Below the pieces are notes generated by a model. The model was not told the DNA's origin and made no database searches. It saw nothing but the letters and a program-made list of their open reading frames with translations. From an uncultured Armatimonadota bacterium (GTDB lineage: Bacteria > Armatimonadota > Fimbriimonadia > Fimbriimonadales > Fimbriimonadaceae), in contig CALMEF010000110.1 of assembly GCA_937862825.1 (NCBI GenBank), positions 1-41,078 on the forward strand: a stretch of 41,078 bases of DNA, written 5' to 3'. Below are positions 28,231-31,946 of this stretch, piece by piece. The stretch's first letter is position 1; the number at the start of each line of letters is the position of its first letter. The position numbers and the translations under genes were made by a program.

Positions 28231-30414
28231 ATGGGCATTTCGAACTGGAAGGACGCTAACAAGGTCGTTGTTATCGGAGCAGGGACGATGGGAAGCGGAA
28301 TCGCGGCCCATCTCTCCAACATAGGCTTTTCGGTCAGTCTGCTCGACCTTACTGATGAGAGCGTCAGCGCTGCTTTTGAGAGAGCACGGAAAGCCCGCCC
28401 GCCTCATTTCTACACGAATGATGCTGCCGACATGGTTCGGTTGGGAAGTATTGAGAAGAACTTAGATTGGGTTCGCGAGGCAGATTGGGTTTGCGAGGCC
28501 ATTGTTGAAAAACTCGACCTAAAGCAGGCTCTGTTCGCACAGGTTGAGCCGCTCCTGCGTGACGACGCAATGATTTCGACCAACACGAGCGGGCTACAAA
28601 TTGAACTGCTTGCTGAAGGAAGAAGTGAGTCGTTCCGCAAGCGATTTATCGGGACGCACTTCTTCAATCCACCGCGCTATCTCAAGTTACTGGAGTTGAT
28701 TCCTACCTCGCATAGCGATCCAGAGGTCGTGCAGGCGATGGCCTCGTTTCTTGAGGATCGCGTCGCTCGTCGGGTTGTAGTCGCAAAGGACACCCCTGGC
28801 TTTATTGCCAACCGATTTGGGATGTGGGCGATGTTCCACGCGATTCACTCTGCCGAGAAGCTTCATCTGACCGTTGAACAGGTTGACGCGATTACAGGAC
28901 CATTTCTCGGTCGGCCTCGCAGTGGCTCGTTCCGATTAAACGACATCGTTGGCCTGGACATCATGCAGGATATCGCCAACAACTTGATCTCTCGATGCCC
29001 CCACGATCCTCACTTGGCGGCACTTCAGACTCCGAAGACGATGTCGTTCCTGCTTGAGAAAGGATGGATCGGAGACAAGTCTGGTCACGGCTACTACAAG
29101 AAAGAAGGCAAGGAACTGGTTAGTCTTGATCTAAACACGTTTGCCTATCGGGAACGACAAGATGCGCGGATTCCCAGCCTAGAGGAAGTCGCCAAAAGGC
29201 CCTTGGGTGAGAGGGTGGCAGCGGCACTGGACCTGCGGGACGAGGCTGGTGAATTTTTGAGATCGCACCTGGTGCCTGTTCTCCAATACGCAAACTATCT
29301 AAAGGAAGAAATCAGCCACAACGTCCAAGATTTCGACCGTGTGATGATGTGGGGATTCGGCTGGGAGATGGGACCGTTTGCCATGATTGACGCGATTGGC
29401 AAAGAGCGGCTAGGGATTGCTGACGGACCGTTTTATCAATCAGGAGACGTGCGCGGCTTCGACGGAACTTACTTCAAGCCTAAGTCTGAACCCCAGTTTC
29501 GAGCGATCCGTGAGTACCCGATGTTGCAAGCAGGTGATGGCTACAACCTTCGTGACCTTGGCGATGGGGTAACGGCCGTTTCACTGACCACCAAGATGGG
29601 GACGATCAATCCAGCCTTGATTGAGTCTTTGACTTCGCTCATCGAGGCTGGAAGCCTTGAGCGTTTTGTTTTGACTGGGGAGGCCCGTAGCTTTTCGGCA
29701 GGATTCGATCTGACCTTCTTTGCACAAAAGATTGAACAACAGGACTGGAAGGGTATTGACGCTGGGCTGCAGAAGCTTCAAAATCTTGCGTTGTTGCTGA
29801 CGCAGCAGAAAGCGGTCGCCGCAACCTTTGGTTTTACGTTCGGGGCTGGCTATGAACTTGCGGCCTCATGTCCAGTTGTTGTCGCTAGAGCTGAAGGCAC
29901 ACTTGGCTTGCCCGAGGCAAAGGTAGGTCTGATTCCTGGTGGAGCGGGCACCGTACTCATGCGCTTGCGGGCTCAGGATGGGGGGGCCAAAGAGCTTTGT
30001 GATCGAGCTATCCAACTTATGCAGGGGACCATTGGCTCGAATGCTGACGACTCGCGGCGCTTGTTGTACATGAGATCCACCGACATCACGTCGTATCACC
30101 CCGATCGCTTGCTCCATGACGCAAGGCTCGCCGCACTAACCGTCGAGCCCCGACCGCATCCGGTATGGGTTCCGACTATTGGTCCGTTGATTGGCATGAT
30201 TGACCGTGCTCAAGATGGTTTGAAGGCTAAGGGCGAGATCAGCGATCATGACGAACTTATCGGTGACAAGATCAAGCAAGTGTTCTCAAAGCCCGCGTCA
30301 CTCGCCGATGCCCTCGCCCTTGAAAGGGAAGTGTTTGTTGACCTCTGCCAAAAGTCGCTCACGTTGGCTCGGATCAAGCATATGCTGGAAACAGGAAAGC
30401 CGCTGCGGAACTAG
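28231..30414 (+). CDS. 3-hydroxyacyl-CoA dehydrogenase/enoyl-CoA hydratase fusion (FadN-like)
   Basis: The 727-residue protein joins two beta-oxidation enzymes. Residues 1-about 310 are the 3-hydroxyacyl-CoA dehydrogenase: NAD-binding VVIGAGTMGSGIA (GAGTMG 16-21), the catalytic-His block IGTHFFNPPRY (His143) and KDTPGFIANR. A second dehydrogenase C-terminal domain spans about 320-430. Residues about 470-700 are a crotonase domain with SFSAGFDLTFF forming an oxyanion side and GAGYELAASCP plus LPEAKVGLIPGGAGT carrying the likely catalytic glutamates. The order (dehydrogenase first, hydratase last) is that of Bacillus FadN, opposite to E. coli FadB. It would oxidise fatty acyl-CoA in the cytoplasm. 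Thiolase and acyl-CoA dehydrogenase partners are not in this window. Confidence 0.9.
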   Translation: MGISNWKDANKVVVIGAGTMGSGIAAHLSNIGFSVSLLDLTDESVSAAFERARKARPPHFYTNDAADMVRLGSIEKNLDWVREADWVCEAIVEKLDLKQALFAQVEPLLRDDAMISTNTSGLQIELLAEGRSESFRKRFIGTHFFNPPRYLKLLELIPTSHSDPEVVQAMASFLEDRVARRVVVAKDTPGFIANRFGMWAMFHAIHSAEKLHLTVEQVDAITGPFLGRPRSGSFRLNDIVGLDIMQDIANNLISRCPHDPHLAALQTPKTMSFLLEKGWIGDKSGHGYYKKEGKELVSLDLNTFAYRERQDARIPSLEEVAKRPLGERVAAALDLRDEAGEFLRSHLVPVLQYANYLKEEISHNVQDFDRVMMWGFGWEMGPFAMIDAIGKERLGIADGPFYQSGDVRGFDGTYFKPKSEPQFRAIREYPMLQAGDGYNLRDLGDGVTAVSLTTKMGTINPALIESLTSLIEAGSLERFVLTGEARSFSAGFDLTFFAQKIEQQDWKGIDAGLQKLQNLALLLTQQKAVAATFGFTFGAGYELAASCPVVVARAEGTLGLPEAKVGLIPGGAGTVLMRLRAQDGGAKELCDRAIQLMQGTIGSNADDSRRLLYMRSTDITSYHPDRLLHDARLAALTVEPRPHPVWVPTIGPLIGMIDRAQDGLKAKGEISDHDELIGDKIKQVFSKPASLADALALEREVFVDLCQKSLTLARIKHMLETGKPLRN

Positions 30415-30448
30415 CCCGGACTTCGGGCTCTATGGGCCTTTATGCCCA
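30413..30448 (+). terminator. Two tandem hairpins after the FadN-like gene
   Basis: AGCCCG-GACTT-CGGGCT (30413-30429) starts at the stop codon and is followed by TGGGC-CTTTAT-GCCCA (30433-30448). Neither has a U-tract. Together they may end or stabilise the upstream mRNA. Confidence 0.45.
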
Positions 30449-30477
30449 CGTATAATTACTATGATTGAGATCACCTG

Positions 30478-30510
30478 TTGACAAAGAGTCCGGGGGGGGG
30501 GGGGTACAAG
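30478..30510 (+). promoter_or_regulatory. Putative promoter with G13 spacer tract (TTGACA ... TACAAG)
   Basis: A perfect TTGACA (30478-30483) is followed after 21 nt by TACAAG (30505-30510), whose end lies 6 nt before the ATG at 30517. The spacer contains 13 consecutive G. Loss of four G would give the optimal 17-nt spacing. A separate TATAAT occurs at 30451-30456 and could instead drive a longer mRNA. Confidence 0.4.
30492..30504 (+). repeat. Homopolymeric G13 tract
   Basis: Thirteen G in a row, far longer than any other homopolymer in the window. Such tracts are prone to slippage during replication and to sequencing error. Confidence 0.9.
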
Positions 30511-30516
30511 TCTCGC

Positions 30517-30999
30517 ATGCACCCAATAGTAGCAGTACTTACGATTGCCATAGCACCCCTCTCTGATTGGATTACCGACGGAGGAGCGACTCACAACTAT
30601 CTCAACAACATAACTACGAGTTGGGAGGACTTTCGCTCTGTTAGTAACTTTTCGACCGTTCCAGTTCAGATAGAGTCCGCTGAAGCAATCTTTAGCCGGA
30701 CACGTTCAGTCACTGGTTCTTCGAACAACGGCCCACCCTGGTCGGAAAAGTTTGCCACTATTGCTGACCCAGGTACCAATGCTTCCATATCGGTAACAAC
30801 GCCTAGAACAAATGAGGGTAACCTTGCCGGATTGACAAAGCGGACTTGGCGTATTCGGTACACGTATGAGGAGGGTAAACAGCAATGGAAGCATGTACCA
30901 ACCAACGAAGTCGTTAGCCGACTTCGCAACTGGCACACGAATCATGACGTCACCGCTCATGATGACCAACTTCAGCAAGGCGGTGGCGGTGGCAACTAA
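30517..30999 (+). CDS. Putative secreted protein, first of a coupled related pair
   Basis: The 160-residue product starts with a signal-like segment (MHPIVAVLTIAIAPLSDW). It is not recognised, but residues about 75-140 resemble part of the next protein. PPWSEKFATIADP corresponds to PPYDDKFFAFEPKP, and TWRIRYTYEEGKQQW followed by PTNEVVSRLRN corresponds to TWGVRFTFEGQPYHR followed by RTEVIQMVSTRL. It ends in a GGGGGN tail. The frame is open back to a TTG at 30478, which would place the G13 tract inside the coding sequence as four glycines; the ATG at 30517 fits a signal peptide better. Its stop TAA overlaps the next ATG by one base (TAATG). Confidence 0.6.
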   Translation: MHPIVAVLTIAIAPLSDWITDGGATHNYLNNITTSWEDFRSVSNFSTVPVQIESAEAIFSRTRSVTGSSNNGPPWSEKFATIADPGTNASISVTTPRTNEGNLAGLTKRTWRIRYTYEEGKQQWKHVPTNEVVSRLRNWHTNHDVTAHDDQLQQGGGGGN

Positions 31000-31946
31000 T
31001 GTTTCTAGTCCGTCTCATGTTTGCAAGTCTGTTACCTGGCACTTCAGGAATTCTTTACGTCCACACTAGCGACATTTCGGAAGAGCATCAGATTTTGCTG
31101 AAGCCCTCAACATGGCCCAAACTTGAGGAGAAGTGTAAAGAACTCAAGTGCAACTTGACGACGGAAGGTGACCTCGCAATAGTTTGGCCTAAAGATCTCT
31201 TGGGACTTGAGGATGCGCCGAAGTTCCGCACTGACCTTAAAAAACTGCTCGATGAAATAGACCCGGGAAAGATTGTTGATATGAACACCATCAGCAAGGA
31301 GTCCAAGGACTTTGTGAAGTCTTTTCTGAAGAGGCAGAACTACCCTCAATATCACCAAGTGATGCCCGATTCGTTCCCTTTCATACTGGACAATAGGGTC
31401 AGCATGAGTTTGAGGGTTGGGGGCAAGGTAGTCGACTCTCTCGGCGTGAGCGGAGACTCGCCTCCATACGACGATAAGTTCTTTGCGTTTGAGCCGAAGC
31501 CAACTTCACAAGAGGACCCTGAGAAGTTGCCGATGGTACCTCCGACGTGGGGTGTTCGTTTCACCTTTGAGGGTCAGCCGTATCATCGAGTCAAGCGCAC
31601 AGAAGTCATTCAAATGGTCTCGACACGATTGGCCAAATTGACTCGAGATGCAGCGATGGAGTATGACAAATTGGTTACTGAGGCTTCGCAGAAGCTAATG
31701 GGCGATAGTGCTCCCGAGAAAGGCATGGCTTACAACGATCTGTCCCCGAGGGCTAAACAGTCATTGCGGAACTCCATCGTGAACCGAATGATTGAGTTTG
31801 GTTTCAAAACCGAGCGAGAAGTTGATGCCTTCTTGAAAGATGCGGTGGTGGACCGCTCAGTTCCGAAAATCTATCTGACCATTGGCGTCAGGCATAGCGA
31901 TGGTTCAAAGACCGGGCATGGCATCGAGTTTGTTCCGCCGCACTAA
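30999..31946 (+). CDS. Putative secreted protein, second of a coupled related pair
   Basis: The 315-residue protein begins with a hydrophobic stretch (FLVRLMFASLLPGTSGILYV) that may be a signal peptide. The middle is charged and Lys-rich (KLEEKCKELKC, KFRTDLKKLLDEIDPGK, DFVKSFLKRQNYPQY). Residues about 145-215 share a domain with the preceding protein. The C-terminal 110 residues look alpha-helical (MEYDKLVTEASQKLMG, LRNSIVNRMIEFGF). No known family is recognised. Translation is coupled to the gene before through TAATG. Its stop overlaps the stop of the decayed ruvB copy by 4 nt (31943-31946), the same arrangement as other convergent pairs here. Confidence 0.6.
   Translation: MFLVRLMFASLLPGTSGILYVHTSDISEEHQILLKPSTWPKLEEKCKELKCNLTTEGDLAIVWPKDLLGLEDAPKFRTDLKKLLDEIDPGKIVDMNTISKESKDFVKSFLKRQNYPQYHQVMPDSFPFILDNRVSMSLRVGGKVVDSLGVSGDSPPYDDKFFAFEPKPTSQEDPEKLPMVPPTWGVRFTFEGQPYHRVKRTEVIQMVSTRLAKLTRDAAMEYDKLVTEASQKLMGDSAPEKGMAYNDLSPRAKQSLRNSIVNRMIEFGFKTEREVDAFLKDAVVDRSVPKIYLTIGVRHSDGSKTGHGIEFVPPH

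Follow-up and report, generated by a model that had tools for sequence, protein, structure and literature searches.

The window, i.e. the whole stretch of 41,078 nucleotides analyzed here, is contig C110 of a 3.4-Mb draft genome in 336 contigs, the only member of its genus among the genomes that we compared. It contains a fadB-like gene followed by two overlapping genes on the forward strand, with a 13-G homopolymer tract in between. The features around this tract are listed below; promoter elements were read from the sequence, the hairpins come from an RNA fold, and genes 1 and 2 are open reading frames. "Family" refers to the Fimbriimonadaceae, of the phylum Armatimonadota.

28231-30414: fadB-like gene, upstream of the tract
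30413-30448, plus strand: two GC-rich hairpins directly 3' of the fadB-like gene (-18 kcal/mol, z -1.8), a possible transcription end without a T run
30451-30456, plus strand: TATAAT, a rival -10 element
30478-30483, plus strand: -35 element TTGACA; TTGAC is equally placed relative to the G tract, the -10 element and the start codon at other family loci
30484-30491, plus strand: spacer bases other than the G tract, AAGAGTCC (8 nt; 5-13 nt in the family)
30492-30504, plus strand: tract of 13 G within the spacer, the presumed slippage site (8-17 G in other family promoters)
30505-30510, plus strand: TACAAG, a weak -10 element 6 nt before the ATG (the family -10 is TANNNT; the last base here is G)
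30517-30999, plus strand: gene 1, read from ATG, encoding P0001 (160 aa) with an N-terminal hydrophobic segment, a GPPW motif and a Gly-rich C-terminus
30999-31946, plus strand: gene 2, encoding P0002 (315 aa), with a one-base overlap with the gene 1 stop

Direct reading of the sequence confirmed the layout described in the first-pass annotation (TTGACA, 13 G, TACAAG, then ATG after 6 nt) as well as its arithmetic, in which the spacer of 21 nt would shorten to 17 nt if the tract held nine G. The -35 element is a perfect TTGACA. TACAAG matches TATAAT at four of six positions and lacks the final T that is kept in most family members, and it is separated by TCTCGC from the ATG at 30517-30519, a distance of 6 nt that coincides with the family peak of 6-7 nt; gene 1 is likely to be leaderless. 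A standard promoter scan of the window did not report the poly-G site, because its spacer exceeds 16-18 nt and its -10 element lacks the final T. The tract is the sole run of at least eight G or C in the whole 41 kb, where eight-mer G/C matches numbered 6 versus a mean of 1.36 in shuffled sequences, and a simple base-frequency model predicts 0.002 runs such as this one per 41 kb and 0.2 per 3.4-Mb genome. When the exact tract region was sought elsewhere in its own genome, the only match was the G run itself.

To assess how widely this arrangement recurs, we searched 85 family genomes with several patterns. The pattern TTGACN{2,18}G8N{0,8}TANNNT gave 30 matches in 14 of the genomes and the reversed pattern gave none. 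A start codon, which this pattern did not demand, was found 4-9 nt past the -10 element in 25 of the 30 matches (24 ATG and 1 TTG), most commonly at 6-7 nt, and the products were mostly proteins of about 140-170 aa with a signal-peptide-like N-terminus. A second pattern, TTGACN{3,24}G6TAN{8,13}ATG, gave 23 matches versus 2 for its control pattern; all 23 contained at least seven G, although the pattern allowed six, and 19 of them carried T at the sixth -10 base without its being demanded (p about 1e-8). Altogether, the same order of -35 element, poly-G, -10 element and ATG is present at about 28 other family loci. Spacers of the 29 compiled family promoters measured 15-24 nt (median 18), and the length of the G tract showed a weak negative correlation with that of the non-G spacer (rho -0.38, p 0.045). 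A stricter pattern, applied to 291 genomes of the phylum, matched 16 times among the 85 from the family and 3 times among the 206 from outside it, and its reversed form had no match. Furthermore, in 400 kb of the closed genome G007 the commonest position of TANNNT was 6 nt before ATG, as for leaderless genes.

These results bear on whether the tract might be a chance homopolymer or an assembly artefact without function. The source genome is a draft assembly, in which a homopolymer length may be miscounted, and several of its long G runs lie at contig ends. However, the G13 tract is internal to its contig, unlike many of those runs, and the full layout recurs before related genes, including in the closed or long-read relatives G007 and G032, with almost no matches to reversed patterns. 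We consider the probability of such an artefact to be close to negligible.

The source genome itself has three promoters of this kind, with spacers of 15, 19 and 21 nt, the last being that of the window. The other two are:

Contig C32: TTGACA, G8, TAACGT, ATG; spacer 15 nt; before a P0001 paralogue with its own second gene
Contig C277: TTGACA, G12, TAGGAT, ATG; spacer 19 nt; before a 417-aa secreted protein

A scan of all bacteria (one genome per species) also revealed the TTGACA-polyG-TANNNT-ATG layout, among the matches listed, in Lachnospiraceae, other Clostridia, Phycisphaerae, Treponema/Spirochaetes, Saccharibacteria, alphaproteobacterial MAGs and others (L148-L263), and the layout is therefore not exclusive to the Fimbriimonadaceae. 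As a separate observation, the same poly-G promoter precedes secreted proteins of about 370-500 aa at L122, L128, L133, L136 and L142, which carry H-G and D-A-C or F-A-C motifs that resemble those of caspase-like or gingipain-like peptidases; a Pfam search with two of these proteins gave no match.

Next to the promoter, the two downstream genes were also found to recur. Both P0001 and P0002 have hydrophobic N-terminal segments, most of their homologues have clear signal peptides by inspection, and P0002 is a probable secreted protein. Neither family matched Pfam, PDB profile searches returned nothing meaningful, with no match for P0002, and a single-sequence structure prediction for P0002 was unusable (mean pLDDT 39). 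P0001 has a paralogue in its own genome (L119, on contig C32) and homologues in relatives, several of them with the same promoter. The recurrent unit is a cassette of secreted proteins of about 150 and about 330 aa: gene 1 homologues in G096, G007, G029, G014 and other genomes follow the same promoter and are themselves directly followed by the secreted protein of about 330 aa. Apart from the sequence of the window, the gene 1 profile (A3) contains ten rows, eight of which were taken from loci selected by their promoter, so that the search with this profile is partly circular. The corresponding test with P0002 homologues, which were found by protein profile alone in 19 of the 85 family genomes, is not. 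Upstream sequence was usable for 29 P0002 homologues, and six of these carry a run of G8 or longer on the coding strand 494-586 nt upstream, i.e. at the cassette promoter; the frequency of such runs in G007 predicts 0.13. The majority, those of G031 and G024 among them, lack a tract, and the cassette thus does not depend on the switch. Several tract-less homologues of gene 1 have the same TANNNT-ATG arrangement, which suggests that the poly-G tract was added to an otherwise ordinary leaderless promoter. Other repeats were seen near P0001 homologues: a CT run just before TTGACT at L379 (G014), a repeated 20-mer, attataagtatcgggtcctg, in front of L367 (G070), and a repeated ATGGGCC at the start codon of L377 (G024).

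The first-pass annotation had also suggested that translation might begin at TTG 30478, in which case the tract would supply Gly4 codons and slippage would shift the reading frame. This TTG is in frame with gene 1, the frame is open across the tract, and translational tracts in signal peptides do exist in relatives. However, the TTG of the -35 element is in frame with the downstream start at only 11 of the 29 family promoters, the one-third that chance would give. What is conserved across these loci is TTGAC, TANNNT and their spacing, not a peptide; furthermore, no plausible ribosome site lies upstream of TTG 30478, and the homologues start after the tract. We regard translation across the tract as most unlikely.

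Alternatively, transcription could start elsewhere, for example at TATAAT 30451 or with read-through of the fadB-like gene, which would place the tract in the 5' leader, either as inert DNA or with a structural or Shine-Dalgarno-like role. Both a perfect TATAAT upstream of the tract and the G-rich sequence 12 nt before the ATG fit this explanation, but the TATAAT has no -35-like partner, hairpins follow the gene upstream, and the distance from the tract to the ATG exceeds that of a usual Shine-Dalgarno sequence. Moreover, across the family the tract is flanked by conserved TTGAC and TANNNT. This reading is therefore very unlikely.

Differences in tract length were found between tandem copies in relatives. 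In G104, two tandem promoters (L143 and L146, on G104:C4) have about 120 nt in common, a stretch covering the promoter and the first part of the signal peptide. The sole indel in this shared block, of 8 bases, lies in the tract, which is G9 in one copy and G17 in the other, giving spacers of 16 versus 24 nt; all other differences are substitutions. The sequence flanking this block in the two cassettes is unrelated, which suggests that the promoter block itself was copied onto different genes. A search for orthologous promoters among eight species of the G104 genus found none outside G104. In G032, two paralogous secreted-protein genes in tandem (L314 and L319) are preceded by almost the same DNA but have tracts of G9 and G10, and here the tract sits near the -35 element, not in the spacer.

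Taken together, we consider it probable that G13 is the variable spacer of a leaderless sigma-70-type promoter and serves as a slippage switch for a two-gene cassette of probable secreted proteins; since the layout recurs before secreted-protein genes across the family, it is probably a genetic on/off switch. In this model, a sigma-70-type leaderless promoter with the G13 spacer would drive both genes, slipped-strand mispairing would alter the number of G and with it the distance between the -35 and -10 elements (21 nt in the assembly, 17 nt with nine G), and the changed spacing would switch or grade transcription in individual cells. The promoter in its assembled 21-nt state would be weak or off. 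The model implies that the tract slips in living cells, and that the products of both genes would be surface-exposed or secreted. The original proposal of a poly-G spacer as a candidate phase-variable promoter of secreted proteins is strongly backed, as a promoter type, by the family recurrence, the near-zero reversed controls and the G104 pair. For the window locus itself, whose -10 element, TACAAG, is non-canonical and whose tract is represented by one assembled sequence, we infer switching.

That non-canonical element may be inactive or decayed, and the window might hold a permanently weak copy of the same promoter family, with a -10 element mutated to TACAAG and an over-expanded tract. TACAAG is among the four of the 23 TTGACN{3,24}G6TAN{8,13}ATG matches without the final T, and its spacer of 21 nt is longer than most in the family. 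On the other hand, genes 1 and 2 are both intact and overlapping, with no stops or frameshifts, which argues that they are still used. Decay of this copy, on which the residual doubt centers, is an unlikely explanation, and we favor a promoter that would still switch.

Spacer tracts of this kind have been described previously. In Neisseria meningitidis, the porA promoter has poly-G between its -35 and -10 elements, and expression is high with 11G, about half with 10G and low with 9G (PMC3639595). The tp0126 promoter of Treponema pallidum likewise has poly-G between the two elements, with a transcription optimum at 17 nt, and controls an outer-membrane product, whereas in tprL of the same organism the tract extends into the -10 element and the spacing is unchanged (PMC7864442). 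By analogy with porA and tp0126, spacing would be expected to set transcription at the window promoter. It shares with porA the position of the tract and may share with it a product at the cell surface; however, porA is one gene in a host-adapted pathogen, while here there are several loci per genome in environmental bacteria, the proteins are unrelated, and family start codons lie 6-7 nt past the -10 element. The likeness to tp0126 is again the poly-G within the spacer, and the differences are in phylum and genes. Leaderless expression from a -10 element adjoining the ORF, a few nucleotides before the start codon, is known from Deinococcus-Thermus (PMC12340547; see also the leaderless gene survey PMC3160421), and the abstracts of these two sources mention no homopolymer switch of the spacer. 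Finally, homopolymeric tracts within coding genes are a general regulatory device in prokaryotes (PMC2831843). Such within-gene tracts switch expression and can be compared with the signal-peptide tracts of the relatives described below, but that work concerns coding tracts generally, whereas the Fimbriimonadaceae combine promoter-spacer and signal-peptide tracts at secreted-protein genes.

In the closed G007 genome we found 15 runs of at least nine G or C, of which three are TTGAC promoter spacers and four lie inside signal peptides; several more are located just upstream of other secreted-protein genes. Signal-peptide G/C tracts of 9-13 were found in large secreted proteins at L106 and L108 (G010), L317, L325, L331 and L334 (G007), and L116 and L117 (G024). 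In seven of these eight, the protein body is intact, at about 460-650 codons, but does not share the frame of the start and signal peptide, and in the remaining one the frames agree; L117, one of the seven, has no ATG in the signal-peptide frame. Judged by their reading frames, the out-of-frame tracts look like translational phase variation, and transcriptional slippage is also possible.

Homopolymer-slippage phase variation is best known from host-adapted pathogens. In the literature searched, we found no paper on phase variation in Armatimonadota and nothing relevant for Fimbriimonas together with homopolymers. The mechanism itself belongs to a known kind; its clade, its leaderless form and the protein families appear undescribed. 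Whether part of the Fimbriimonadaceae has a dispersed phase-variation system is, in our estimate, evenly balanced. Such a system would comprise a promoter module (-35, poly-G, TANNNT, ATG) duplicated onto fast-evolving pairs of secreted proteins, together with the signal-peptide G/C tracts of large secreted proteins, and each cell of this non-pathogenic environmental group would show a random subset of a polymorphic secretome. If this is true, several independent poly-G switches per genome would amount to a comparable bet-hedging program outside the usual hosts, in an environmental family of a little-studied phylum that is partly long-read sequenced. It would also raise the question of the selective agent for switching (phage, predators or kin recognition) and suggest that the switched products belong to two undescribed families of secreted proteins, and the switch is testable by ordinary amplicon sequencing and reporters.

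We rejected a generic enrichment of long G runs as evidence, because runs of nine or more G in the source genome (21 seen versus 38 expected from a base-frequency model) are not above base composition and many runs in drafts are contig-end artefacts. It is the location of long G runs, not their frequency, that is non-random. The longest G runs, of up to 71 G, are often at contig ends (C16, C126, C148, C228 and C279 of the source draft, G000; G104:C5 and C8); these are probably sequencing or assembly artefacts, and counts from drafts need a contig-end filter. In addition, the source draft holds five apparent paralogues on C81, C142, C185, C218 and C279 (L013, L023, L030, L098 and L101), in which a G10-G15 run opens the gene or lies within it and the C-termini include sequences such as CNIDVGLLTEEWFDG. 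A Pfam search with three of the five gave no accepted match. Two of them, L030 and L098, have near-identical sequence 3' of the G run and different sequence 5' of it.
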